Positions 35,672 through 63,950 of a stretch of 64,000 nucleotides of DNA are shown here, in pieces. The notes beneath the pieces were generated by a model, which did no database searches, was not told the DNA's origin, and saw only the letters and a list, made by a program, of their open reading frames with translations. The position numbers and the translations under genes were made by a program. The stretch is taken from assembly GCA_029582165.1 (NCBI GenBank), contig CM055877.1, positions 23,325,355-23,389,354 of the forward strand, given 5' to 3'. The first letter of the stretch is position 1; each line of letters begins with the position of its first letter. The stretch comes from Portulaca oleracea (Eukaryota; Streptophyta; Magnoliopsida; Caryophyllales; Portulacaceae).

Positions 35672-37120
35672 TAATAGGCCGCAAGTGCACGGGTGCTCGT
35701 GTAGCAAGTGTCAAGGTCGATTTCCACAGGGACTTTTCCTTTCAACGCACTGAACTAGCCTCCTAGTTGATTGCTAAGTCGATCGGGTTTTTGTTTGAAA
35801 CAATCTAATTCTATTTCTATTCACTATTCAAGATTAACAAATAAATATACACACAATTTACTTGAATTTATCAATAAGAAAAAGACGTTCAGGGGATAAA
35901 ACCTAAGTAACTTTATGAATCAAACAAGTGGATGGAACATGTATGTCATTAATTTGGTACATTTTAGGGTCGATAATCGCATAAATTATTCCGTAGTGAG
36001 CTTTTGGCACTAAAACAGATTGCGTAGCAAAATTGATCACCTACTGTCGTGGTTATTTCAATTTTAACTAAGTTAAAGATCAAATTATCCAATGACCACT
36101 AATTATAAAGTCTTCTATGTCTAGTTCACTTCATAACTAGTTTAATCCTAAGGGTTCCGATTATCGAATTTCTCCTTTCAGTACTTCACTCAACAATCTA
36201 ATTCCATATTCTTGATGGCCAGTCAAAAACAATGACATACATAATCAAAGGTTAAATAAAATGCATTCAAACTAGATTAACAAACTTGTTCAATCCAACA
36301 AAACTCAATCCATAAGAGAAACAAATAAGGGTTTATCCCCTAAACTAAAAGAAAACTACTCACTACTCATGTTCAAAACACAAAACATATTAAAATCTAT
36401 TCTAGAAAGCATATAAAAATCTATGAGAGAATGAGAAATAAACCAAATGCAGAACAATCTTGCAAGGAATGAACTATGGAGGACTTTTGCTCCTCCAAAC
36501 TTCAATCTTTGCTTCAATCTTCTTTCTTGATCTCCCAATCCTCCCCCTCATTGATGGATGCATTAATCAATATAAAGGGGATCAATCAGGGTTAGGTGAC
36601 AGCATGGAGGATAGTGGAGTGATTATTGCTTCCATAGACAGCCGAAAAACATCATGATAAAAAGCAAAAACCCACTTGCAAGTGCCGAAAGTGAAAGGAT
36701 AAAGCAACACGGACCGTTCCAGGGCAACACGGGTCGTGTCACTGTCAACACGGGTCGTGTTGACATGACACGGACCGTGTTGCTCACTGGAGTTGGATTT
36801 CTAACTTTCTGGAATCTGAAACGGCCCGTTTTGGGTCTTTTGGCACCCGTGTTGATGCCAGTCGGGCTCCAATGTCTTCTTGGGCCAATATTTGGGCCTT
36901 GGGGTGGATTTATTCTTCAGTTGTGATCCTCTTGGACTCCATACACTTGATTTTAAGCTTGATTTCTTCAATTTAACACCAATTTCCTACAAAACTATAC
37001 CAAACTCCAACCAAGCATAAAATAGAGAATTCGAGTATAAAAATAATACATTCATATCAATAATCACTCAAATTAACTCTAAATAACCCAAGATCACATA
37101 TATATAAAATACACTTATCA
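35672..37120 (-). repeat. Athila 3' LTR, 1449 bp
   Basis: On minus it starts TGATAAGTGTATTTT after the PPT and ends GCGGCCTATTA (CTATCA in the partner). A TATA-like TTTATATTGATTAATG lies on minus near 36567. The dyad array at 36705-36860 is about 140 bp upstream of it. Small frames shared with the other LTR are not genes. Confidence 0.92.
36705..36860. promoter_or_regulatory. Dyad array in Athila 3' LTR
   Basis: Units CAACACGGACCGTTCC (36705), CAACACGGGTCGTGTC (36725), TCAACACGGGTCGTGTTGA (36745) and TGACACGGACCGTGTTG (36766), then looser copies to 36856. Spacing is about 20 bp. Confidence 0.75.
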
Positions 37121-39194
37121 AACCCCCCATGCTTACACCTTACTTGTCCCTAAGCAAGGCTAAACTCACAAATATAATAGAAATCAAATAAAATAACGAA
37201 GGGAGAAAATAAACGGGACAAAATGACTCAAGTCAAAAAGGAAAAAATTTCAAAGTAAAATTGAAAAATTTATTTACAAATTTCCTCAGGAAAGCATCGA
37301 TAAGACTTTCAATTAATCCCATTTAATCAAGCATAGCCCAAGTATGAACGAAAGTTCATATACAAGAGAAAATGAAATCATAAAAAGAATTACAAAAACC
37401 ATACCTATCAAGATCAAACTAATCACCCTCCTAATCACAAATGAAACAAGCAAGCACACAATAATGGAGGAAACTAGGTAATTGAGAGCAACCTCACTTT
37501 AGGGAATGTGGAAACACTCCTCTCATGTGTTTGAAAGATTAATATTCAAATGAAGGTGCACTGAATACTCAATCACAAAGCAACATTCTACCATAAGCTT
37601 GCAAATAATCTCAATTCTCTACCGCTAAAATACAATGAACAATGATAATCAAGAGGACTTTCAAAAGGGTTGTAATGGGGCTAAGGTTAAGGGTAAAGAG
37701 TTGAGATATATTTGGGAAAGTGGAGCTAAAAGCCAATACTTGGAGCATAAACCTCACCAAATTATTAAAATAAGAACACTCACACCTTATAAACATATCA
37801 ATGCATCCCATAATCATGTGGAAATTGCCTCAACTCAAAAAAAAATAAACTATCAAAATACGTTTTTTTTTTCATTTCTCTGATTTTTGTTTTCTTTTTT
37901 TTTTCTCTTTTTGCTATTTTTTTCTGAAATTCAAATATTTCAATTCAAACTCAAAGATATATACATCAATAAAGCAATTTCAACTCGACCCATATCAAGC
38001 TACAATGGGGAGCAATCTCAAAAAAAATATTTCAACTTCACAACATCCCCAACAAGACCAAACCACAAATACATCACAATCAACCCAACTTTTCACACTC
38101 TAACACTCCAAGCAATGGCTTAAAGGTAGGAAATTATATATACGACCATGGCTAAAAATGTAGGTAATCAAGAGAAAGAGTGATACAAGGCTAAAGGTGG
38201 GTTAAAAACGGATAATTCACATGTAAAGGGTGGCTACTTGGCTTTGTAGTTGAAATATGTACAAGAATGCCTCTATCATATTACCAATGCACAAGCAAAA
38301 ATGCAGTTTCAAAGAGATGCATCGCAAGTTCTAGAGAATGCAACTAAGGATGAGCCACACATGGAAATGAGACTAATAAAAATGATTAGTCATTTAAGGC
38401 CTTTGTGGTCTCACAGGTTAAAAAGCTCTCAAATAAACCTAGCTCATATAGACGTATACGTGCTAAACTCATTCCAAAATATCTCAAAAGGGCAATAAAT
38501 CATCACTATCAAAGTACAATTCTAAACTCTCTATGATTCACAACTCTTTTCAAACCTTTAATTCACAAAAAGGGCTATACGAGACTAAATCAAATCAAAT
38601 CAAAAGAAAACTTATCTAGCTTTACCTTATTTTATTTTATTTTTTTATTCTTCTTTTTCTTCTTTTTCAATTTTTTTTAAAATTTCTGATTTTTTTTTAA
38701 TTTTTCAAAATCTAAAATCAAAAGTCAAATGAAAAAACTAGAAAATAAGAAATTAAAAACTAAGAAAAAGAAAGAAAATTAAAATATAATATGATACTAA
38801 CTAATGCAATAATTCATAAATGAAAGAAAATAGAAAACTTAAGAAAAATCAAAAAGAAAAAACTAAACTAACTAAAGAAACAAAACTAAAATGAAAACCA
38901 ATAAACTAAAGGAAAAACAGAAAATAAAATCATATTCACAAAGGTGAAAACACAAAATTTTTAATTTTTCAAATTAATCCCCCCATGCTTGGACAAAGCA
39001 TTGTCCTAAATGCATAAAACAAGAAGAAACAAGCACAAAAGGGGAAAAATAGGACAATCACTGCGGTGGTGGAGGAGGAGGTGGGTAAGGGTATTGGTTA
39101 GGGTAGTTCAACTGTCAATCGCGCATCGCTTGCATCATCTCAAGCATGCGCGCTTGTTCGGCAGCTTGGGTGGCATTGGCTTAGTCAAGAAGGT
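37121..39194 (-). other. Athila polypurine tract and AT-rich post-ORF spacer
   Basis: The PPT lies at 37121-37135. The rest, about 2 kb, is A-rich on plus (37820-38960 especially) with no meaningful frame. A second CCCCCCATGCTT purine-tract-like word occurs near 38979, just downstream of the ORF. Confidence 0.75.
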
Positions 39195-44882: not shown

Positions 44883-46353
44883 TGATAGGCCGCAAGTGCA
44901 CGGGTGCTCGTGTAGCAAGTATCAAGGTCGATTTCCACAGGTACTTTTCCTTTCAACGCACTGAACTAGCCTCCTAGTTGATTGCTAAGTCGATCGGGTT
45001 TTTGTTTGAAACAATCTAATTCTATTTCTATTCACTATTCAAGATTAACAAATAAATATACACACAATTTACTTGGATTTATCAATAACAAAAAGACGTT
45101 CAGGGGATAAAACCTAAGTAACTCTATGAATCAAACAAGTGGATGGAACATGTATGTCACTAATTTGGTACATTTTAGGGTCGATAATCGCATAAATTAT
45201 TCTGTAGCGAGCTTTTGGCACTGTAACGGGTTGCTTATCAAAATTGATCACCTACTGTCGTAGTTATTTCAATTTTAAGTAAGTTAAAGATCAAATTATA
45301 CAAAGACCCCTAATTATAAAGTCTTCTATGTCTAGTTCACTTCATAATTAGTTTAATCCTAAGGGTTCCGATTATCGAATTTCTCCTTTCAGTACTTCAC
45401 TCAACAATCTAATTCCATATTCTTGATGGCCAGTCAAAAACAATGACATACATAATCAAAGGTTAAATAAAATGCATTCAAACTAGATTAACAAACTTGT
45501 TCAATCCAACAAAACTCAATCCATAAGAGAAACAAATAAGGGTTTATCCCCTAAACTAAAGGAAAACTACTCACTACTCATGTTCAAAACACAAAACATA
45601 TCAAAATCTATTCTAGAAAGCATATAAAAATCTATGAGAGAATGAGAAATAAACCAAATGCAAAACAATCTTGCAAGGAATAAACTATGGAGGACTTTTG
45701 CTCCTCCAAACTTCAATCTTTGCTTCAATCTTCTTTCTTGATCTCCCAATCCTCCCCCTCATTAATGGATACATTAATCAATATAAAGGGGATCAATCAG
45801 GGTTAGGTGACAGCACGGAGGATAGTGGAGTGATTATTGCTTCCATAGCCAGCCGAAAAACATTATGATAAAAAGCAAAAACCCACTTGCAAGCGCCAAA
45901 AGTGAAAGGATAAAGCAACACGGACCGTTCTAGGGCAACACGGGTCGTGTCACTGTCAACACGGGTCGTGTTGCCATGACACGGATCATGTTGCCATGAC
46001 ATGGACCGTGTTGCTCACACTGGAGTTGGATTTCTAACTTTCTGGAAGCTAAAACTGCCCGTTTTGGGTCTTTTGGCACCCGTGTTGATGCCAGTTGGGC
46101 TCCAATGTCTTCTGGGGCCAATATTTGGGCCTTGGAGTGGATTTATTCTTCAGTTGTGATCCTCTTGGACTCCATATACTTGATTTTAAGCTTGATTTCT
46201 TTAATTTAACTCCAATTTCCTACAAAACTATACCAAACTCCAACCAAGCATAAAATAGAGAATTCGAGTATAAAAATAATACATTCATATCAATAATCAC
46301 TCAAATTAACTCTAAATAACCCAAGATCACATATATACAAAATACACTTATCA
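44883..46353 (-). repeat. Athila 5' LTR, 1471 bp
   Basis: TG...CA ends on minus (TGATAAGTG...CCTATCA). It is 22 bp longer than its partner; this is fully explained by one extra 20-bp dyad unit and a 2-bp AC insertion near 46012. Confidence 0.93.
45916..46090. promoter_or_regulatory. Dyad array in Athila 5' LTR, one unit longer
   Basis: The same order of units as in the other LTR, but the unit CCATGACACGGATCATGTTG precedes CCATGACATGGACCGTGTTG, where the partner has a single copy. The array lies about 140 bp upstream of the TATA-like box on minus. Confidence 0.78.
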
Positions 46354-46559
46354 AAAGCCACGTTCCGAGTTAGCGTCAGCCTGACCGTACTGAATGCCTG
46401 ACCATTAAGCTCTTCCCAATCCTTCTGTTCCATTTCTTTTGGCTTATCACCCATCGCAAGATGCAACCTTTGCTGGCGGAGCACATCCTCAACGCGCATC
46501 CTCCACCATGCGTAGTCTTTCCCATCGAACTTCGGAATCTTCACAATTGCGCCCGCCAT
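46354..46559 (-). pseudogene. Copia gag N-terminus (continues at 35671)
   Basis: ATG at 46559 opens MAGAIVKIPKFDGKDYAWW, the usual start of a Tork/Tnt1-like copia gag, then LGDKP-like text and the FSTVRLTLTRNVA helix, where the Athila LTR begins at 46353. The protein continues on the far side of Athila. The reading phase matches when one 5-bp duplication is counted. ATG lies about 40 bp after (minus) the primer-binding site. Confidence 0.88.
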
Positions 46560-48516: not shown

Positions 48517-48979
48517 CCCACTCTAATCTATCATAACATTTTTCCATGTCAAGTTTTAAAGTGTCTTAACCTTGTTTAACTTTCATGTTTTTAAAGTTTT
48601 TGATAATTCAGTTTGATGATCGAGAGCTACCAAAATATTGTCATCGGTTGAATGACCAGAAATAAATGCGCTTTGACTTGGGTTGATAATCTTATCAAGA
48701 ATAGGTTGCAAACGATTGACCATAATTTTTAAAATAATTTTGTAAAGACTATTACATAGCCTAATGTCTAGTTGAGTGGTCGAAGTTGGATTATTTGTTA
48801 TATGAATCAAAGCAATCAGAGTATGATTCATGTGCTCCTCCTGAAAGAAAAATTTGATTGCTTCACAAACATCATTATGCACAACATAGCAACAGTTTTG
48901 ATAAAAGGATATACCAAAACAATGTAACCCTGAGGCTTTGAACTTGTATTGTTGAAAGACAGCTTGCTCAATTTTTTGA

Positions 48980-49302
48980 GGGTTTTTGGATGTTAATATA
49001 CTGAACTTTTGGAGTATTGGACAATAGTACACTGAACATTGACTTTGGACGATAATACACTGAACTTTGGGGGTGTTGGACAATAATGCACCCGGAACAA
49101 CTTCAGCGGTGGCTAACTCGGTGGCGATCCTACGTGGTAGCCTGCCACGTAGGATCGCCACCGAGTCAGCCACCGTCAAAATCTCTCCGGGTGCATTATT
49201 GTGAACAGCCCCTAAAGTACAGTGTATTATTGTCCAAGGTCAAAGTTCAGTGTATTATTATCCAATAACCCAAAAATTCAGTATATTACCGTCCAAAATA
49301 CC
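48980..49302. mobile_element. Mutator-type MITE, copy 1, inserted in LINE RT
   Basis: 323 bp, nearly all inverted repeat: termini GGGTTTTTGGATGTTAATAT and, on minus, GGTATTTTGGACGGTAATAT. The centre is a near-perfect palindrome (CTCGGTGGCGATCCTACGTG at 49109 mirrored by CACGTAGGATCGCCACCGAG at 49143). The exact 9-bp duplication ATTTTTTGA flanks it (48971-48979, 49303-49311), as made by Mutator-superfamily transposases. Removing it restores LINE text. Confidence 0.88.
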
Positions 49303-51134: not shown

Positions 51135-51428
51135 GGGTTTCTGGACGCTAATATACTGAAATTTCGGGGTATTGGATAATAATACACTGTAGTATGGGGG
51201 TGTTGGACAATAATACACCCATAACAATTTCGGCGGTGGCTGACTCGGTGGCAATCCTACGTAGTCCGCCTGCCACGTAGGATCACCACCAAGTCAGCCA
51301 CCATCGAAATCTTTCCGGATGCATTATTGTTCAACACCTCCTAAAATATAGTGTACTATTGTCCAATGTCAAAATTCAGTGTATGATTATCCAATACTCC
51401 AAAAATTTATATCAACATCCAAAAATCC
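51135..51428. mobile_element. Mutator-type MITE, copy 2
   Basis: A sister of the copy at 48980: same termini (GGGTTTCTGGACGCTAATAT) and same GC-rich palindromic centre (CTCGGTGGCAATCCTACGTA, then CACGTAGGATCACCACCAAG). The flanks CTTAAACAA (51126-51134) and TTTAAACAA (51429-51437) match at 8 of 9 positions, a diverged 9-bp duplication. Confidence 0.85.
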
Positions 51429-51788
51429 TTTAAACAAATATCTGAAATTCAACATTATTAATACCTGTTCTTTGGATTGGTTGGAATCACTTTTGGATGG
51501 ATTGGATTTGATTGGATAAGTTGTGATACATTTTGAGGAATTGTGTTTTTAGAGAATATTTTTTTGAGGAATTGTGTAAAGTTTTGATTGGATTGGATTA
51601 AATTGGATTGGAAAGAATTACCAATCCAAAGAACAAGTAAGTCTTGTTGACATTCGATTCTAAACACTAATAATAGCTTTAACATGAATCTTCCATGAGT
51701 GCGTCTATACTATTAATAAATGGTCTTATAATTCGTTTTATTATTCATTCTGTATTAGAATACGAGCGCTTTTTTGAGATATTGGAAG
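51429..51788. other. AT-rich flank of the Tat element
   Basis: Contains repeated GGATTGGATT words near 51500-51620. No gene. Confidence 0.5.
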
Positions 51789-52610
51789 TGTAGATCTATA
51801 AACACAAATTTCGAACCTGAAATAAATAAAGACAAAAAATATGAGAAATAAATTAATTTTTATTGATATTTGAATGTAAACGGGTATAATCTCTATATCA
51901 AATACAATAATGATGATCCTCTGATTCGATTTCCTATGACTTGGGTGAGCCGAGGGCGCGGACGCTTGATCTCGATCGATGAAACAGACGAGGAAGACGA
52001 CTGCAGTCTTTGATGTGAAGGACATAAGCTGTTGAACTAGCTGACGTTTGTCCTTGGTGCTTGGTAGCTGGAGAGCGCCTGTAGTTCGATCTTCTCATCA
52101 GCTTTGCAAGTCTTGCTGAAGAACTCTGAAGCAGTTCTTGATCTTGACGCAGTAGAGGCTTGAAGACTCGATCCTGAGCATTTGCAGACTTCGATCCTTG
52201 GCGCTTGGTAGCTGGAGACTGCTGGCAGTTTGATCTTCTGAAGCCTCTGGAGTGCATAATGTCAAATGCCGCCGGTGTAGACTGCAGTATATGTTGAAAA
52301 TGAGGGAGATGACCCCTATTTATAGCCTCTGGAGGCCTAGGGTTGCCTAGGGTTTGAGCCGGGCTTTGGGCTTGGGCCCAAATTAATTAATTATCCCTTT
52401 ATTTAAAATAAAAAAAATAATTACTATTTTCTGCATCATAATTGACACGTGTCACGATGGTATTGGCCAAGGTACACTTCCATTTGAAATTTAATTAAAT
52501 GGACCGCTGTATTTAATTTTGCACGTGGCGGATAATAATTGATCCAAATAAATTTATTTATTTTCCACGTGTCGTCTTCTGATTTGTCGACAAATTTTTA
52601 CTTCCTATAA
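51789..52610 (-). repeat. Tat-type gypsy 3' LTR
   Basis: On minus: U3 from about 52610, TATA box CTATAAATAGG at 52316-52324 (plus complement), predicted start of R near 52285-52292, then R-U5 ending near 51789 (ATAGATCTACA). The purine tract GATGGGGGCAT precedes it. U5 shares about 190 bp of nearly identical text with 57175-57370. R-U5 contains a 144-bp internal duplication (TCCTTGG...GGTAGCTGGAG at 52051 and 52195) that the second copy lacks. The exact LTR start base is uncertain. Confidence 0.78.
52446..52571. promoter_or_regulatory. Three CACGTG G-boxes in Tat U3
   Basis: CACGTG cores at 52446-52451 (within the perfect 12-bp palindrome TGACACGTGTCA), 52522-52527 (GCACGTGGCG) and 52566-52571 (CCACGTGTCG). 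All are upstream of the TATA box on minus. G-box/ABRE elements bind bZIP and bHLH factors in plants; use here is inference. Confidence 0.7.
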
Positions 52611-52626: not shown

Positions 52627-53980
52627 TCAGCCGCGGACACGAATCTTGAGTGTTTGAAGCGGTTGGGTCTTGAATACTGATGGTTTGACTTTAGCTTGGC
52701 ACGAATTTTCGTAGGGCCCAAAGCTATGATTTTACCGGACATGTGAATAACCAGTGGAAGTATGTCTATTTATATGCAAGTATAATACAATTATAAACGT
52801 ACAAGAATTTTGTTTTTCTTCTTCTTTTTCTTTAAAAAAAAATTAATACCCTTGAAGCATGCTTCCTTCCACGTTTGGGGCTTACATTTACTAGATTGAC
52901 CCAGTATATGTACGGATTTTTTTTCTTTTCTTCTTTTTGTTTCCAAATTATCAAGAATTTATTTAACTAAAATTCTTAACAATTATAATTGGAGTAGGAT
53001 TGAGGCTAGAGTTGGAGTTGGGGTTGAATTGGAGTTGAACGGAATTGGATTTGTAGTGGGAATATGAGACTTATCAGTCAAAACACTATAAATTAGCCTC
53101 CAGTCTCTGATTATTCAGTTCGTTGTGACAGAGATAAATCTTTCCAGTAAAATTCTTTCCGTTGATTAATCCTTTTAATCTTTACGGTGACCATGAACTG
53201 ATTATTTGCGTGATTTGCAGGAACAGAGGGTGTTCTTAGTGCTCTTGCCAACAAATTTCACCACGTATGATCCCTTTTTATTGAATCTTGGAGGATAAAC
53301 TTTGATGCCTTAGATACATATTCTGATAGTTCTTGATCATACCATCGATTTTTTCTTCCTTTATTTTCTGCCTAGTGCCTCTGTTTTGCTCTTAATTTTT
53401 GAATTTTTTTTCTTCGGCTTTTGATCATCACCAGCATCACAACTTTGTGATATGGATGATGATGATGGTTCTGGTTGACTTTCTCTTGATGATCATGCTT
53501 TTGGAAAAAAAAATTGATGATCATGATTTTGATCTAGATGATCTTGATTTTGATTGTTTTTTTTTCGATGACCATGATTTTGATCTTTGATGATAGATGA
53601 TCTTCGTTTTGATATTTGAAGTAAATCATACTCCCGTGTTGAGCTATTGATCTTGCTCATGATTTTAGTTTCGATGGAGATAATTTGATAATTATGATAA
53701 TCATACGATCTTGATTTTCATCCTACTTGATTTCGTGATTCCTCTGTTTTTGGGGTAAATTTACAGAGGTTTTGGGATCATCAACAATGGATGGTTTTGC
53801 TATCATATATACATATATATATTTTTTAATTTGTCTTACTTGAAGAATTTCTGCAACTGTTTCTCCAATTCTGCGCCACTCTCCTTTTCGAGTTGGTGAT
53901 TTTTTTTTTTGGAGCAGGAAGTTGGAATTAATTGACATTGTCTGCTTGAAGTTGCCCTTCGTCCTCGCCAATATCTTGCC
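52627..53980. other. Tat 3' spacer with GAT-rich tract
   Basis: Non-coding. 53410-53720 is rich in TGATGATC/TTTTGAT words; frames through it are Asp/Phe runs. No recognisable gene. It separates the antisense PMD pseudogene from the PPT. Confidence 0.55.
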
Positions 53981-53981
53981 C

Positions 53982-54161
53982 ACTCCTCAGCGTGCTGACG
54001 TATGGTAGTCCTAGACTACTCTCTTCAGGACTGTCTGGGTCGACAACATCGTCTTCTCCGCTTTCTGTGCTACTCCTCAGCGTACTGACGTAGAGTAGTC
54101 CTAGACTACTCTCTTCAGGACTGTCTGGGTCAACAGTGTTGTCACTCCGCCCTGCCTTGAG
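53982..54161. repeat. 90-bp tandem duplication
   Basis: ACTCCTCAGCGTGCTGACGT (53982) and ACTCCTCAGCGTACTGACGT (54072) start two copies with a period of exactly 90 bp. They share CCTAGACTACTCTCTTCAGG. The unit is a multiple of three and both strands stay open through it. It lies just 5' of the PMD frame. Confidence 0.92.
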
Positions 54162-54207
54162 TACTCCCCTTGTGATATTCAGGCTTTTCACGTCACCGCT
54201 AGAGATC

Positions 54208-56743
54208 ATGGTGTACTTTGTTGACTCATCTTCGAAATCGCCATCTGTCACCATTTTGGACAAGAAAGACGACGCCATCGAGGACGGAATAACACTCCGA
54301 GTTGATGTGCCGACGCCACTACCCTCCAAGAAATCCTTGCTCAACGATGAGCTCACAGATTCTCATTGGAGCGTCACTTCTACCCGTGATGTACTGAACT
54401 CAGACGGCACCATCACACACAACTATAAAACTTTGAAGTTTTTTTCTCCTCTGTTCGAAGCTTCAGTTCCAGTACAAAAACCATCGCCTTTGCAGACGGG
54501 TCAATAACATGGGGGACTTTCTCGCCTAACGACAACTTTTATATTCCATGTTACTGGGAGTGGCTCGAGGACGTTCTTGGTCGTAATAAGGAAAAACTCA
54601 TAGACTAGAGGATTTTTAATGGATTATATGCATCTTTATTTTCCTACGACCTTAGCCCCAATGTTTTCAAGACCTTCTATGAACTATGGTGCCCTACTAC
54701 TAACACCTTCTGCACAGAGATGGAGAAATGTCGATTTCTTTGTGAGACATGTGGAAAATAGCTGGGCTTCCGGCTAGTGTGTCTTACTATGAAGAAGTTG
54801 TTCCTTCCGCCCAAACGTTGTTGTCTGCCGGCCAAGAAGATAGCGACATACCAAAGTCCTGCATTTATCTATTTTCTGTTTTCCGCAACCAATGTCAAGA
54901 TGTCAATGGCACTATTCAACTTCCAGCTAGCGAATGGGTGCGTTTCTAGTATCGTGGCTCGAAGAAGTATGCAAGCCCTCCCCCACGAGATAATAGAAGA
55001 CGGAAAGGAGTTCCACCAGAGACTTGTTGTCCTCCTGGATCCATCGCTAAACGTCCAGTACGGACCAAGAAGGAAAAGGGTCCTTTTGTTCTTCTCGGTG
55101 TTCCCGAGTCATTGATTGAAGACTACCTCGCCGCCCTCATATCTTGCTGGTTATGTTGCTTTGCACTACCAACTGACAAGCTTAACCTCATCCGCCCTGG
55201 TGTGTTCAAGGCTGCCAGCCAGATTGCGCTTGGGGAATGTGTGAATTTGGCCATCCCAACTTTGGCTAGTATCTACCAAGGTTTGTATAAGATCTCCTCT
55301 GCTAAGAATTTGAGTAAGCTGGAGGTTATTTTCCCTGTGCAGTATGTTTATGGCTGGTTGGGCACCTATTTCGAGAATCATTTCTAGCATCCTAAGATCA
55401 AAGACAATCATTCTCCTAAAATGGTTAAACTTTCAAGAGAAAGAATGGACAAAACATTTGATCGGCAGGGGTCACGTGAATTACTGAGGCGTCCTGAGGT
55501 GTCATGTGTATATTGTATTGCTGAGTTGATGGACACCTGTCGGGAACTGACTGACACTCCTGTATTGTCCACTGGCTGGAAGGCTTACATGGTCTGCATG
55601 CGCAGCGGTTTTCTGACGCTACGCCAGGGGAGGACTATCGTAATAGAGTCGTACTTCCCTTGTAAATTCGGGAGTCAGTTTGGTTTTTATCAGGATGTGC
55701 TTAGTGATCCCAGCAAGACTGTTCGCGGTGGTACTTTAGAAGACGCGGCATGCTACTGGTACAATCTGACAAAGCATGGGCTGAGATCCACAGTGACTAT
55801 TCCTTGCACACCAGGCCCAAAGTCCATGATGGTTATAGTAGAGTATGCCAACTGGTGGAAATCTTATCGCCAGGATCTCTTTTCTTCGGAGACTAAGAGG
55901 CTCATTCATGCTGATACAACACCGCCTAAGGCTCGTAGGGCGAAGGTTAATGACGATGCCTCTGTTCTGGTTGTCACTGATGGAAAAGCAAAAGCCTGTC
56001 ATGCCTCTACTGTTCAAGTTGTTCCTCCTGTTGATGATCTTAGGGGGGAAGGAGATGGTAGCTCTTCTATTGGTCCGGACTTGTCTCCTCAAAAGAGTTC
56101 TCATGATTCACCTGGGAGGGAGAAAATTGAGTCTTTGAAAGGCTTAGATATCGCGCCAAGGTCCAGGGGTAAATCAAACTGCGCGACTAGCTTGTCTAAG
56201 TCCGAAAACAGAGCAAAGGCAAGTCTATAACTCATCAACCTACCCCTTTCTCCCTATGCTTTTTTTTTTTTTTTTTTTTGCTGATGGCAGATACGTAGAT
56301 GAACTGATATATTTTTCTTGCCTGGGCAAGAGTTGACTCCAACGAGCAAGGAGCTGCTTGAAGAAATGTTCGGTGACGATGGCAGTGAGAACACCTTGAC
56401 GGCACCGCTCGCAAGGAGTCGTGAGCCAACTGCATCAATTGACATAATGCCCCCACCGGTCCACGACGTCAATAGGGCTCATTCTCCTACTCCATCTGCT
56501 TCCGCCTACTTTCCTGGCAAAATCTCCCATGGCTGCTTGGCTGGTGAGGTGCGACGACAGTTTCTTCAACAGTTAAAGAAGTATATTCCACGGACAGAAG
56601 ATGACATTAAGAACCTGAGATCAGAGGCCGAGAAGTTCTATGGAACCTTGTCGTCTCTTGACGCAAATCCTTCAGCGAGAGGTCTTGCAAGTTTATTTTC
56701 AGCAGCAAGGACAGTAGCAGGACTACGGTTTTTACTCTGCTGA
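54208..56743 (+). pseudogene. Plant mobile domain (PMD) protein pseudogene, antisense in Tat element
   Basis: Plus-strand pieces: 54208-54450 (MVYFVDSSSKSPSV), a frameshift, then ITWGTFSPNDNFYIPCYWEW and LSPNVFKTFYELWCPTT (54500-54720), 54749-54949 (GLPASVSYYEEVVPSA) and 55080-55387 (IEDYLAALISCWLCCFALP, YGWLGTYFENHF). The best-preserved piece, 55421-56230, has the characteristic SQFGFYQDVLSD and YWYNLTKHG region. A last piece spans 56318-56743 (PTSKELLEEMFGDDG). It resembles the aminotransferase-like plant mobile domain. At least four stops or frameshifts occur; the gap 56231-56317 with a poly-T tract may be an intron. It lies antisense between integrase and PPT, where Tat-lineage elements are known to carry an antisense extra ORF. 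Confidence 0.72.
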
Positions 56744-56745
56744 GC

Positions 56746-57174
56746 AGGAGTCAGGTTAGACATTCTCTCTTCAAACCCATTACTGTCCCAAGGTATAGAG
56801 TATTCCAGTGTTATCTCTTCCGTCAACTGGATCTTTTTCTCCATGGAAGGTGGCTTCGGCGCTATATTCTCCACAAGCTTTTGGTTAACAAAGTGTTCAA
56901 AGGAGCTTCCGTATCTTTCCTTGAATATGTCTCTAAGTTCACAAAGCTCAGGTAAATCAGAGAATCTGGCAGCAGCGAACATGAGGGATACTACAGCCTC
57001 TCTGCAATCCTCAGGGCATTCCCTGAGCTTTTGCAAAACCGGAAGGTGCTTCAAGATGATTTCACAAACATGATAAATAAATTCATAGCACGATGAAAGA
57101 ACCAGCTCTGCAACCAGTCCTTCAGCTCTTCCAAAAGCATTGGTTTCGAGGCCGCTTAAGAGCAGATCAGCACC
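56746..57174 (-). pseudogene. IST1-like host gene fragment captured in the Tat element
   Basis: A 143-codon uninterrupted stretch on minus: ADLLLSGLETNAFGRAEGL, CYEFIYHVCEIILKHLP, ECPEDCREAVVSLMFAAARF, LPELCELRDIFKERYG and IQLTEEITLEYSIPWDSNG. This is the core of an IST1-like protein (regulator of Vps4/ESCRT-III in the multivesicular-body pathway). The first helices and the C-terminal tail are missing. The frame runs open from an R-U5 LTR segment (57175 upwards) and passes into sequence antisense to PMD at about 56745. It has no intron over 430 bp; IST1-like genes usually have one near the ECP motif (from memory), which suggests a spliced RNA source. The open frame suggests either recent capture or selection. 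Confidence 0.75.
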
Positions 57175-57549
57175 TACACAAATTTGTAAACACAAATTTC
57201 GGGCCTGAAATAAATAAAGACAAGAATTATGAGAAACAAATTAATTTTTATTGATATTTGAATGTAAGCGGGTACAATCTCTATATCAAATAAAATAATG
57301 ATGATCCTCTGATTCGATCTCCTATGACTTGGGTGAGCCGAGGGCGCGGACGCTTGATCTCGATCTCGAATGTAGGTCTAGCTGAAGAACTCAGTTGTAG
57401 TTCTTTACCTTGACGTGCAGAAAGCTTGGAGCTGTTGATCTTGAACTTTCGTCGACCTTGATGCTTGGCGCTTGGGAGCTGGAGGCTGCTTGCAGTCCGA
57501 GCTTCTGAATTCTCTGAAGTGCAGAATGCCGAATGCCGGTGTCGTCTGC
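57175..57549 (-). repeat. Isolated R-U5 segment of the Tat LTR
   Basis: Matches R-U5 of the LTR at 51789-52285 (AGCGTCCGCGCCCTCGGCTC, AATAAAATTAATTT-type text). It starts at the base equivalent to 52285, about 38 nt downstream of the TATA box, and lacks U3 and TATA. On its upstream side it is fused to integrase with a 4-nt overlap (GCAG, near 57550). On its downstream side it is fused to the IST1 fragment without a primer-binding site. It also lacks the 144-bp duplication, so it came from a different family member. Confidence 0.8.
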
Positions 57550-57802
57550 CCATTTGAAGAAGTAGTCTGTGGTGGCCAAGATGTAAGAATGACTAGCCGA
57601 TGACTTAGGCGTAATTGGTCCAACAACATCAAGACCCCATGCCTCAAACGGCCATGATGCCACCATAGGATGGAGTGGTTCCGGAGGCTGGTGTATGAAG
57701 TTGGCATGAAATTGGCAAGCGTCACACCACCTGGCATAGTTCATGCAATCTTGTACCATTGTGGGCCAGTAATATCTCATCCTCTTAACACGGTCCTGAA
57801 GC
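57550..57802 (-). pseudogene. Tat integrase, truncated
   Basis: The zinc-binding C-terminal pair (CDACQ, near 57720) follows RYYWPTM. The catalytic core opens with WGLDVVGPI (first Asp) and ATTDYFFKWAD (second Asp), then stops at the fusion with R-U5. The third catalytic residue and the whole C-terminal domain are absent. It joins by a frameshift to the RNase H frame near 57803. It cannot be active. Confidence 0.85.
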
Positions 57803-58552
57803 TTAGGACCTGATTGATGCGCGCCACACGTCCTTGCTTTGCCTCGTCCAGCCTAGACATCTTAACCAGAGTCCTGAAAAAGAGCGCCGATAGAGGGTAC
57901 CATGGTAGTAGAAGAACCGAGAAGCTCTCCGTTGGACTTCTGTATTATGCTTAACATCACTAGGTAGCCTTCCATGCTTTAAGTAGTCCATGATGGGTTG
58001 GCGCCAATCCTCCACCTCGGTTTCAAGAGCACATATTGCATTGACCTCTTCTTCCAACTCCTGGTCTGGCAGTGCTACGACCCATCGGCTGCATACCGGG
58101 ATCGTTATGTTCTCTTCTGCCCCTAGTGCTAAGGTGGCCGCCAGATTAGCGAGTGCGTTAGCCATCTTGTTGGAACTCCTTGGAACATGCTCTACCTTGA
58201 CTATGTCCAATTTCTCCAATAATTGCAACGCCAGCCTGTGGTATGGCACCAAGTCTTCCTTTTTAACTTCATACTCTTCAAGAAGTTGCTTAATGATCAA
58301 CTGTGAGTCACCGTAGATGTTGAGCTCCTTTATCCCCATTTCAGTAGCCATTTGAAGTCCCAGGACCAATGCTTGATATTCCGCCATATTGTTTGAACAT
58401 AATTGAGTAAGAACAAACGAATATGTTAGAACATGTCTTTCGGGAGAAACAAAGACAACCCCTGCTCCAGCGCCATCATGCCTCGCCGCTCCATCAAAAT
58501 ACATATCCCACGATGGAAAGATGTCTACGAAGAACACGTCCTCCCCTGGCAA
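57803..58552 (-). pseudogene. Tat second RNase H (archaeal-type) and integrase N-terminus
   Basis: The element has two RNase H domains, a mark of the Tat lineage. This one shows MYFDGAARHDGAGAGVVF (Asp), SNNMAEYQALVLGL (Glu), IYGDSQLIIKQL (Asp) and HVPRSSNKMANALANLA. In the last motif the usual catalytic Asp (D-A-L-A-N-L-A) reads Asn. The end (LPSDVKHNTEVQRRASRFFYYHGTLYRRSF) is the HHCC start of integrase, which breaks near 57830. A TAG near 58570 separates it from the first RNase H. Confidence 0.87.
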
Positions 58553-58567
58553 GTCATCACTTATCTC

Positions 58568-59118
58568 CTAGTTGTCAGGAATCGGGTGCTCGACCAAGAA
58601 GTCAGCTAATGCTTGTCCCTTCATTGCTTTTTGCGGGACATAGACAATGTCGTACTGCTTCAAGATCATGGCCCACTTTGCCAGACGACCACTTAACACC
58701 GGTCTTGACAAGATGTACTTGATAGGATCTGCCTTAGAGATGACACGCGGTGTGAGATGCATGTAGTGCCTTAGCTTCGAGCAATAAAACCGTGGCTAAA
58801 CATATCTTTTCTATAGGAGAATAGTTCAACTCAGCTCCGACCAGAGTTCGACTTAGGTAATACAACGCTCTTTCTTTTCCATCTTTAGTGTGTTGAGCGA
58901 ACAACGCCCCCAATGACCTCTCCTGCACCGTAACATAAAGTATGAGGGGCTTGCTAGGGATCGGTGCTCCTAAGATTGGAGGGTTTGACAAGTATTTCTT
59001 GATGGAATCAAAATCTTTTTGATACGAGTCATCCCACTCGAAAGGAGCACCCTTCTTCATAAGGTGGCTGAAAGGATAGCAACAACCAGCAAGATTTGAT
59101 ATGAACCTCCGAATATAG
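58568..59118 (-). pseudogene. Tat first RNase H (gypsy-type)
   Basis: MKKGAPFEWDDSYQKDFDSIKKYL (59060) starts the tether/RNase H region, then LILYVTVQERSLGALFAQ and LYYLSRTLVGAELNYSPIEK. A frameshift near 58780 leads to ISKADPIKYILSRPVLSGRLAKWAMILKQYDIVYVPQKAMKGQALADFLVEHP. The catalytic Asp position reads YVTV rather than Y-V-D/A variants that keep an acid; degenerate gypsy RNase H domains are common when the second RNase H is present. Confidence 0.82.
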
Positions 59119-60500
59119 GCTAGTCGACCTTGAAGGCTGCGAAGCTCCTTGAGATTCTTTGGTCCGGCATTTCCTGGATTGCTTTAATCTTTGCTTGGTC
59201 AACCTCTATTCCTCTATGGCGAACGACGAAGCCTAGGAACTTTCCAGAGGTAACACCAAATGCGCACTTTAGAGGATTCATCTTAAGTTGACACCTCCTC
59301 AACCGTTCAAAAATTTGACGAAGGTCCTGAAGGTGATCCGCCCTCTTCCTTGACTTAACCACCAAGTCATCAACATAACATTCCAGTGTCTTATGAAGCA
59401 TGTCGCCAAATATTTTCTGCATCGCTCTTTGGTACGTCGCTCCGGAATTTTTCAAGCCGAACGACATTACTTTGTAACAAAATATGCCCTTTGGTGTCCG
59501 AAATGCTGTCACATCTTGGTCTTCCGGTGCCATCTGGATTTGATTATATCCGGCGGTGCAATCCATAAATGACAAGGTTTGGTGACCCGTGGTGGAATCA
59601 ATCATAAGTTCGGTGATGGGTAAGGGAAAGTCATCTTTTGGACAGGCTTCGTTAAGATCGTGAAAGTCCACACAGACGCGAAGTTGTCCGTTCTTCTTCC
59701 TTACAGGGACAATGTTTGCAATCCATGTCGGGTACTTCACTTCCCGAATGAATTCTGCCTCGATGAGCTTGTCGACCTCCTTTTCAATTTCTGGAACCAG
59801 TTCCGGACGGAACCTCCGTTGAGGCTGCTTCTTGGGTGAGACACCTTTCCTTATGGCCAAGCGATAGACAGCAACCTTCGGGTCTAATCCGGGCATCTCC
59901 TTGTAATTCCAAGCAAATATATCCCTATATTCTGAAAAGAGTTTGAAATACTCCCCCTCTTCTTCCGACGTGAGCAGAGAGCTTACATAGATAGGGCGAG
60001 GCTCCTCTACTGTTCCAAGATTTAACTCTTTTAAATCATCGACCGTTGCTTGCCCCCCATCTTCAAGTGTCTTAGGAGTTTCAGCAAGCTCTATTTCATC
60101 CTCAGGATTTTGGTGTTCTGTGATGGTAATATGATTGGTTGACAAAACTTCTTCTTGGCTGGACTCCTTTTCAGATTTGGTATTTACCCGGTGACCTGTT
60201 AGAACCACAGTACGTCTCTTGACTCTAAGGGAACAATCTGTCTTTATATCCAAGGTAGAGAGACGCTTCATGCGAGAAGGGAGAGAGCTTTGAATGTCAT
60301 TTGTGACTCCTATGCGTCCGAACACGGAAGTGTCTCCTTGAAAAAGTTGTGGCTCCAATAATTCCTTACTGGCTTTTATCCTAGCAAACACTGAAGGCTT
60401 CGACTGAGAATGACCCTTGATTCTGCTGAAAACAGATCTCCTTCTGCTAGGTGTGTCTCTTATACGAGTGAAGACAGAAGGGCGTTCACCAGAAGTAGTC
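59119..60500 (-). pseudogene. Tat reverse transcriptase
   Basis: In the 423-residue frame from 60391 the RT occupies about residues 205-415: VCVDFHDLNEACPKDDFPLP, SFMDCTAGYNQI (catalytic Asp 277) and CYVDDLVVKS (YVDD at 339-342), then GFVVRHRGIEVDQAKIKAI. Catalytic residues are intact. A frameshift near 59160 displaces the end of the thumb. N-terminal to RT is a linker with repeated SVFxRI motifs (60310-60520). RT copies the element RNA primed by a tRNA. Confidence 0.92.
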
Positions 60501-61907: not shown

Positions 61908-63950
61908 TTATCCGTAGCTTTTTGAAGAAGATCTCACTTCGCTGTCCTCATCTTCGAGCTCGGAGCAGGAGACCATGTTAACCACAACTTTTTCAGCCTT
62001 TCCTAAGAAGTCCCATGGGAAATATTCACCTAAGGTGAGAGGACGACGTGAACCTTTCTCGAACGACCCAGAGGTTTTGGCCAACTGCTTCCTAGCGTTG
62101 TCGACCCTCTTCCCTTGCCTAGCCGGTTGGGAACTTCTTTCCCCTCCTTGTTGCTTTCTATTGCGAGATGATGGTACTTGAACTTTGCTGTTCTTCCTAG
62201 TTTTCCTCCGTGTGACGAGAGTCCATCCTCCCTCCTCCTCTAGACCTTCTGGTGCTTCCGTATGTCTCCTTTGAGAGGCCCGAGCTAAAATGGGGATAAA
62301 AACTGGTTCTTGGCTCCCGAACTGGATCATCACAAGATCTTCTCTGTTATATGGAGCCAGGTGTGCCGAAATACAGTTAGTCTCGACGTTGTTGTCCAAG
62401 TCCAATATTATCCTCCCTTCTTCAGCTAACCTCATGATGCGTTCTTTCAGGGTAATGCATTTCTCGAGAGGGTGACTGACTACCCTGTGATAGCGACAGT
62501 ACCTCGGGTCGTTTGTCCATCCCGCTTCTTCTGGCCTCTTTGGTTGTGGGAGCTCGATAACACCCTTCTCCAGCAAGTCATCAAGCATTCCCGACAAGTC
62601 TGAATCAGGGAACGGATATTTCTTCTCCTGTAGCTCCTTCAACGTAGGACGTTTCTTAGCATCATTCCTCGAGAATGTGGTTTTTCTGCTTTCTTGTTTG
62701 GGTTTGGCAGAGATTCGAACTGGCTCCTCAATTGCAGTTGAAACATACATGGACTCCCTCTTTGAAGTCTTCACTGGCTTTGCATTCTTCTTGTACTCGT
62801 TAGTACCCTTTCTTGCTTCGGACGAAGATGAAGATTTTCCCCGTCGATTCTCTATGGTAATCTCCATGTCGTGTGCCTTGGTTGCTAACTCCTGGAAGGT
62901 CCTTGGCTTGACCATTTTGAGGACGTAGAGCAGGTCCCAGTGCATACCTTGAGTGCACATGTCGACAGCCGAAGCCTCAGAGAGGCGATCCTTGCACTCA
63001 AGACTAAGAGCCCTCCAATGATGGATGTATTCAAGGACCGACTCCCCCTCCCATTGTTTGGTATTCGTCAGCTCCGTCATGCTAACAACACGTTGAGTGC
63101 TGTAGAACCGGTTTAGGAACTCTCGCTCCATTTCTTCCCAGCTGTTGATAGACTCGGGTTCCAAATCTGTGTACCAGTCGAATGTTATCCCTTTCAATGA
63201 TCGAACAAACTGCTTCACCAGTCGGTCTCCTTCCGTCCCTGCATTGCTGCAAGTCTCGATGAAATGCGCAACGTGTTGCTTGGGGTTACCTTTTCCATCA
63301 AACTGATTGAACTTCGGGGGTTGATAACCGAGTGGCATCCGAAGCGCATCGATCCTCTTTGTGTAGGGCTTTGTATACAAGTGACTCTTGTTCGACGCCT
63401 CTCCGAGTTGAGCCCTTACTGCATTAGCAATCATACTCTGGATCTCTTCCGCAGTCATTGATCCTGAAGACGAGATCTTCTTTTTTTCACCGTCGCCATC
63501 ACCATCACCCTTAGAAGATTCTTTGTCAGATTCCTCGTCAGTTTCTTCATCAGACTCTTCATAAGGGCGCTTCTCTATTTTCCTCATTAGTTTCGCGATC
63601 TGTTCGCTTTGTTCGTCGATCTTTTTGTCTTTTTCTTCGCTTTCCCTAGCAAGTCTTCTCAGTGTAGCCTCCAACTCCGCAATCTTTTCTTCCATGTTGG
63701 AAGCGCCAGTTGTCATCACTGACATGATGACAGTTTGAGTAGACTCAATTTCAGCCTCCGAGAAGATAGATTCCTTTTCAGTCATTGGGGAAGAATCTTC
63801 GCTGGAATAGTCTTGGCCTTCAAAGTCCTCAGACTCGAAGATCGGGTTGTTGCGAGTTTGGAGTTCGTCCGTTCCACGCGGTGTAGTCATGACTGAGCCG
63901 AAGGTATTTGTAGTGCTTGGCCTCCGAGAGTGAGGAGTCATTTGAAGCAC
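61908..63950 (-). CDS. Tat-type gypsy gag, long open frame
   Basis: An uninterrupted 680-residue frame. Residues 85-128 form a likely coiled coil ([20 protein letters not shown]). An acidic Glu/Asp/Ser stretch follows (about 130-160), then the gag domain at about 205-330 ([55 protein letters not shown]). A cysteine/histidine motif [15 protein letters not shown] lies near residue 475. The C-terminal part is basic ([18 protein letters not shown]). The true start may lie upstream, outside the window. The protease follows in another frame after 11 nt, so a frameshift or splicing would be needed. It is the only full-length open gene of the element. Confidence 0.88.

Follow-up and report, generated by a model that had tools for sequence, protein, structure and literature searches.

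We examined a 64,000-nucleotide stretch of the Portulaca oleracea genome (the window, C10:23325355-23389354 of a 1.13-Gb assembly), in which a single Ty3/Gypsy element lies on the minus strand from 51797 to past the window end. Between its integrase and its antisense open reading frame (ORF), this element carries two captured pieces: the R-U5 part of a long terminal repeat (LTR), extended by the first bases of the leader, and a fragment of a host IST1 gene stripped of its introns. The parts, the intron losses, the joins and their inclusion in one insertion unit are plain in the DNA, and no second copy of the arrangement was seen among the candidates scored in three genome searches (the best 40 in each, out of 2967, 1253 and 131 first-look candidates). 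The composite probably arose by three template hops within one minus-strand synthesis, leading from the antisense-ORF region to a spliced IST1 messenger RNA (mRNA), then to another element RNA at its 5' end, and back into integrase. An earlier sequence-only reading of this DNA had proposed that an LTR drove a chimeric LTR-IST1 mRNA, which was then joined to the element by template switching.

The IST1 patch (56670..57171, minus strand, 502 nt) matches the Pfam domain Ist1 (PF03398) with E=5.6e-35 and 121 bits against a cut-off of 33.6; the match covers profile positions 30-164 of 164, the N-terminal part being missing. Its nearest protein relatives belong to the Caryophyllales, the best being P0007 (79%), with a Carnegiea protein at 77%, and the window copy groups with these two in the protein tree (support 84). 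When 501 bp of the patch were searched against the plant's own genome, with all 9 first-look candidates scored, the window proved to hold the only unbroken copy; the other matches were two close genes in pieces, at C2:60091081-60094102 and C23:33010343-33013790, and two more distant ones. Both close genes show exon pieces of 45, 104, 145, 141 and 67 nt, separated by four GT-AG introns of 1511, 785, 91 and 134 bp in C2 and 1541, 972, 91 and 343 bp in C23. Because exactly these four introns are absent relative to both genes (4/4 in each comparison), leaving exon joins at 57127/57126, 57023/57022, 56878/56877 and 56737/56736, the patch, with its parts of five exons, derives from a spliced mRNA. 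The lack of introns noticed in the sequence-only reading is thus borne out by the host genes.

The limits of the patch differ from those first proposed. An end at 56746 had been given, whereas similarity to the proteins of relatives extends beyond that point and, together with the host exons, places the real end at about 56670; what was listed as the last part of the antisense ORF (56676-56743) is the complementary strand of IST1. A test for exon-edge breakpoints had been asked for; both edges, the start at 57171/57172 and the end, fall in the middle of host exons. A retained intron at the 5' edge, where GTGTAG/GTGCTG resembles a splice acceptor, was considered and rejected, as the host exon continues upstream of 57171. 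No poly(A) tail, listed as a general mark of retrogenes in an excerpt of PMC5664825, follows the mid-exon stop near 56670; an internal mRNA fragment would not carry one. A separate processed IST1 pseudogene as source was also rejected, none having appeared among the nine candidates. Among viral contigs, none of 20 pattern-matching stretches encoded a relative, and there was no exact match to an LTR word.

The R-U5 piece (57185..57549, minus strand) lacks U3 and TATA, as had been stated, and stops at the true LTR end, TTTACA. It resembles the element's own 3' LTR at 95% over 179 bp and at 76% over 178 bp, while elsewhere in the genome 29 of 30 LTR placements (29 loci, L002-L030) match it at 93.8-96.3% and the remaining one at 87.8%. 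With these values and the Ist1 score, the presence of an R-U5 piece and IST1 at this place in a Tat-like element is far beyond chance. The donor was not of the subfamily of the element's own two LTRs: the donor LTRs differ from the element's own in R and lack a stretch of some 120-130 bp that the latter carry. The LTR end reads TTTACA in 28 of the 30 placements and a one-base variant in the other 2. What follows it is the leader AAT(T/G)TG(G/A)CAC in 16 placements, which are for that reason taken as 5' LTRs, other sequence in 12, and in 2 the facing partner of a tail-to-tail pair in L016. That pair (about 1270-1873 of L016) consists of two LTRs of the donor family with a short palindrome between them (TTTACA AATTTAAATT TGTAAA).

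After TTTACA the window continues with AATTTG (57179..57184, minus strand), which corresponds to the element 5' leader (AATT) and the first two primer-binding-site bases (TG of TGGCACGC...), so that the captured piece extends six bases beyond the LTR, two of them into the primer-binding site. Between this leader and IST1 stand six bases of unexplained origin, TGTAGG (57173..57178, minus strand), found in 0 of 30 placements and 0 of 16 leaders; alternatively, the U5 end AAATTTGTGT may have been copied twice, which leaves three bases unexplained. R-U5 and IST1 are therefore adjacent and on the same strand, as claimed, although not in direct contact, given AATTTG and the roughly six further bases. 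Similarly, the open frame described across the two pieces holds for about 20 codons before IST1, and the R-U5 part itself has stops.

The R edge had been put about 38 nt after the TATA box, where an LTR transcript should begin. Measured in the element's own LTR, it stands 39-43 nt after the first T of TATAAATA; GCAG lies 37-41 nt from that T in the 26 placements with both marks, and at least 39 in 21 of these. The usual distance from TATA to transcription start is about 32 nt. If it holds here, the R-U5 piece starts some 6-12 nt inside the expected start, near it as proposed and yet not at it.

These pieces belong to one insertion. The element's own 3' LTR (51797..52609, minus strand, 813 bp, with TATAAATA from 52324 down) was delimited by alignment with its 5' LTR, a 773-bp repeat beyond the window end (C10:23389612-23390384), after which comes AATTTGGCACGCTCAGTGGGAC, interpreted as leader and primer-binding site. 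The two differ at 59 of 768 aligned positions (K=0.082), and the repeat GATCT adjoining the 3' LTR (51792..51796, minus strand) matches GATCA before the 5' LTR at 4 of 5 bases. As this LTR pair and target-site repeat enclose the composite, it sits within a single insertion. Both terminal dinucleotides of the 3' LTR have decayed, TG to TA and CA to TA (TATAGG...TTTATA from TGTAGG...TTTACA). Relative to the related copy L079, the window element is 1672 bp short: the latter half of integrase and the last part of the antisense ORF are missing.

At two of the three joins, the adjoining parts share bases. The integrase/R join (57545..57549, minus strand) bears GCAGA, of which 4 or 5 bases belong to both parts: the family integrase reads GCAGA and then GGC in 27 of the 29 copies examined, the matching LTR site reads GCAGAC in 10 of 30 placements and GCAGTC in 13, and the extent depends on this variation among LTR copies. 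The 4-nt GCAG overlap seen by the sequence-only reading is thus real, its length being 4 or 5 nt by LTR copy. On the other side, relatives of the antisense ORF end their match at or before 56675 in 40 of 40 non-self places (the best 40 of 131), 31 of them at 56673, and the join bears TCCTTCAG (56668..56675), whose full 8 nt are common to the C23 IST1 gene and copies L080 and L086. Across the seven copies readable at this join of the eight inspected (all but L085), the bases shared with the C23 gene number 8 for L080 and L086, 6 for L083 and L084, 4 for L081 and L082, and 3 for L079; the C2 gene shares 6 with L080. A random join would have at least 5 nt in common with a chance of about 0.005 and at least 8 nt with a chance of about 0.0001. 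All captured pieces are sense relative to the element.

We consider it likely that one faulty round of minus-strand DNA synthesis in a virus-like particle built this element. Reverse transcriptase would have copied element RNA from its 3' end into the antisense-ORF region, hopped by way of TCCTTCAG or part of it to a spliced IST1 mRNA, and copied 502 nt toward that mRNA's 5' end. It would then have passed to the leader/U5 of another element RNA, one belonging to the related subfamily, and copied U5 and R almost as far as the capped end. A last hop, by way of GCAG(A), would have taken it back into the integrase of the first RNA, 1672 bp (as measured on L079) upstream of its departure point, and the product would have integrated as one unit. 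We infer the single pass, the order of the hops, the packaging of IST1 mRNA and the R edge as a trace of that second RNA's 5' end. RNA capture with template switching, the core of the sequence-only proposal, fits the intron losses, the overlaps at two of three joins, the common strand, and the single insertion unit with its target-site repeat.

The R edge near the expected start, and the adjacency of R-U5 and IST1 on one strand, would also suit a history like retroviral oncogene capture. An LTR, or the 5' part of an element, in an IST1 exon would drive an R-U5-leader-IST1 mRNA, which would be spliced, packaged and recombined by two switches; one switch fewer is required, and a join made by genomic deletion would fit the filler found where U5 meets IST1. 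We think this sequence of events unlikely, and equally doubt the source locus it entails, a donor-family LTR and AATTTGTGTAGG joined to IST1 exon sequence and since lost. Both close IST1 genes are uninterrupted at the exon in question, with no donor-family LTR within the 8-9 kb read at C2 and C23, so that insertion of an LTR in an IST1 exon was rejected for these loci and the LTR sought next to an intact IST1 gene was not encountered there. Leader, not IST1, follows the LTR end, and the U5/IST1 join lies mid-exon, on which ground an exon-edge join made by splicing from an LTR donor was rejected too. Nor did any R-U5::IST1 fusion appear at other loci among the scored candidates, whether as a single relative, as the sequence-only reading had asked one to look for, or as a many-copy element. 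Because of the mid-exon join, the IST1 genes without an LTR and the leader after the LTR end, the LTR-driven fusion mRNA is not needed, and that part of the earlier proposal gives way to the three-hop route.

The age of the patch bears on a different rival, in which a break in the already inserted element was repaired with loss of about 1.7 kb, an IST1 complementary DNA (cDNA) and a strong-stop-like R-U5 cDNA being captured by microhomology-mediated end joining. Over 501 nt, the window differs from C2 by 31 substitutions and from C23 by 36, while C2 and C23 differ by 12; the divergence of the patch precedes the separation of C2 and C23, and 27 changes are private to it (15 nonsynonymous and 12 synonymous). 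On the coding strand 11 of these 27 (56671-57171) are C to T and only 2 are G to A. From the divergence of the LTRs, 20.5 changes would be expected to have accumulated in the patch after insertion, against 27 seen (P(>=27)=0.10); half the insertion age gives P(>=27)=1e-5 and twice that age P(<=27)=0.013. On these values the age of the patch comes out close to that of the insertion or a little above it, within a rough test in which gene and element rates differ and part of the 27 changes may predate capture.

Against later repair, patch divergence is not below what insertion age predicts (27 against 20.5). Repair would also need two free cDNAs at one break and a chance of 1 in 4 for both to lie in sense, even though the overlaps at two joins and the third join with its filler of some 6 nt fit end joining as well, and the R-U5-leader piece resembles a minus-strand strong-stop product. 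On balance we judge break repair improbable. An assembly artefact or chimeric join is barely credible: the 27 private changes in 501 nt mean that the patch is not a misplaced copy of a present-day mRNA, and the LTRs and target-site repeat are in place around it, with overlaps at two joins.

Several points nevertheless weigh against three hops. The 8-nt overlap is a best case, found with 2 of 7 antisense-ORF copies, the others giving 3 to 6. The U5/IST1 join has no common sequence and leaves about six (or three) bases unexplained; end joining, or run-off at the end of a broken mRNA, would be a closer match to it. The R edge does not fall exactly at the expected transcription start. The age match is weakened in that the patch diverged earlier than C2 and C23 did from each other, so that part of the 27 private changes may be older than the capture. 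Finally, rarer relatives of the joins could be missed, since only the best candidates were scored.

The private changes carry a hint of constraint at the level of sequence comparison. Random placement would yield 19.5 +- 2.2 nonsynonymous changes, and 15 or fewer arose in 143 of 4000 draws; there are no stop codons among them (17% by chance), and none of the 47 columns invariant across 24 Caryophyllales relatives is altered. Between window and C2, nonsynonymous and synonymous divergence (dN and dS) amount to 0.042 and 0.152. This signal probably stems from the pre-capture part of the branch, and a role of the patch after capture may also be entertained. Most likely the patch is passenger sequence without function.

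Plant LTR elements are known to capture host mRNA, and the window copy stands out in that its hops are unusually legible. In a published model (Tan et al. 2016, as given in an excerpt of PMC5408686), short similarities guide repeated switches of template between the RNA of an element and cellular mRNA packaged with it, and retroduplicated genes within plant LTR elements, including a pepper NLR, are described in the excerpt of PMC5664825. As in the LTR-mediated retroposition of these partial accounts, the window has a spliced host mRNA fragment in an LTR element, with introns lost, overlaps at two of its three joins and room for several switches; unlike in them, the R-U5-leader end of another element RNA adjoins the host fragment inside the element, and gag-pol is largely kept. 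Abnormal RNA switching and transduction of host genes in plants are reviewed in PMC13317346. According to an excerpt of that review, maize Bs1 likewise carries host gene fragments in a plant LTR element, although these come from three genes and form an expressed fusion, whereas the window element has one gene, no second copy seen and a broken integrase. Abnormal template switching in Veju and BARE-2 similarly involves a hop between two RNAs in one particle, with altered LTRs or added unknown sequence as the outcome, where the window has an internal R-U5-leader beside host mRNA (same excerpt). A tripartite chimeric pseudogene of Magnaporthe, as described in part of PMC2104539, also records two template jumps in one insertion, driven there by a long interspersed nuclear element (LINE) and not by an LTR element.

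A limited literature search turned up no report of IST1 capture by a mobile element and no plant case of oncogene-style, LTR-initiated gene capture; that the window insertion is a fossil of such a capture from a lost locus, preserving the transcript start region with spliced exons, has in our view a small chance of being right. The capture route is usually lost in known cases. Here each join can be read because the close IST1 genes, the donor-LTR relatives and uninterrupted relatives of each side share one genome. Genomes can be searched for internal R-U5-leader pieces that end at the primer-binding site, which mark the use of a second element RNA as template; such pieces could serve to count hops and to probe the packaging of host mRNA with element RNA.

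The rest of the element follows Gypsy order on the minus strand. The gag ORF (61908..63950; PF03732, E=5.4e-12) is followed by RNase H and reverse transcriptase ORFs in three pieces of a decayed pol (57803..60391; PF13456, PF17919, PF00078) and by the integrase stump (57545..57780), whose last residues are ...YFFKWA and whose Integrase_H2C2 match (E=7.7e-5, 23.2 bits) is below the Pfam cut-off of 25.5; in L079 the rve match (E=4.7e-7) is just below its own cut-off. On the plus strand, the antisense ORF region (54136..56675) has stops inside, is cut at 56673-56675 by the opposite-strand IST1, and shows weak similarity to the plant mobile domain (PMD), with E=4.1e-6 (55112-55387) and 0.0092 (55421-56230), both below the Pfam cut-off. 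An 87-nt unit in two direct copies (85%) occupies 53959-54135, upstream of the antisense ORF pieces.

An antisense ORF between pol and the 3' LTR is present in both the window and L079, and excerpts of PMC7264820 and PMC11963269 report such ORFs in Tat/Retand-type Ty3/Gypsy elements. On this anatomy the element would be of Tat/Retand type. Its LTR length falls within the 315-1194 bp reported in those excerpts; unlike the elements described there, its antisense ORF is weakly PMD-like, and none of the antisense-ORF pieces scanned (pieces only, 4 from the window and 3 from L079) yielded a transposase-28 domain.

Other repeats also occur in the window. Direct repeats of about 1.47 kb at 35674-37122 and 44885-46355 (95.6%) flank ORFs that look gag-like by eye and are perhaps the LTRs of another element. 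At 48979-49298 and 51135-51429 lie related copies of a short inverted-repeat element, similar to miniature inverted-repeat transposable elements (MITE-like).
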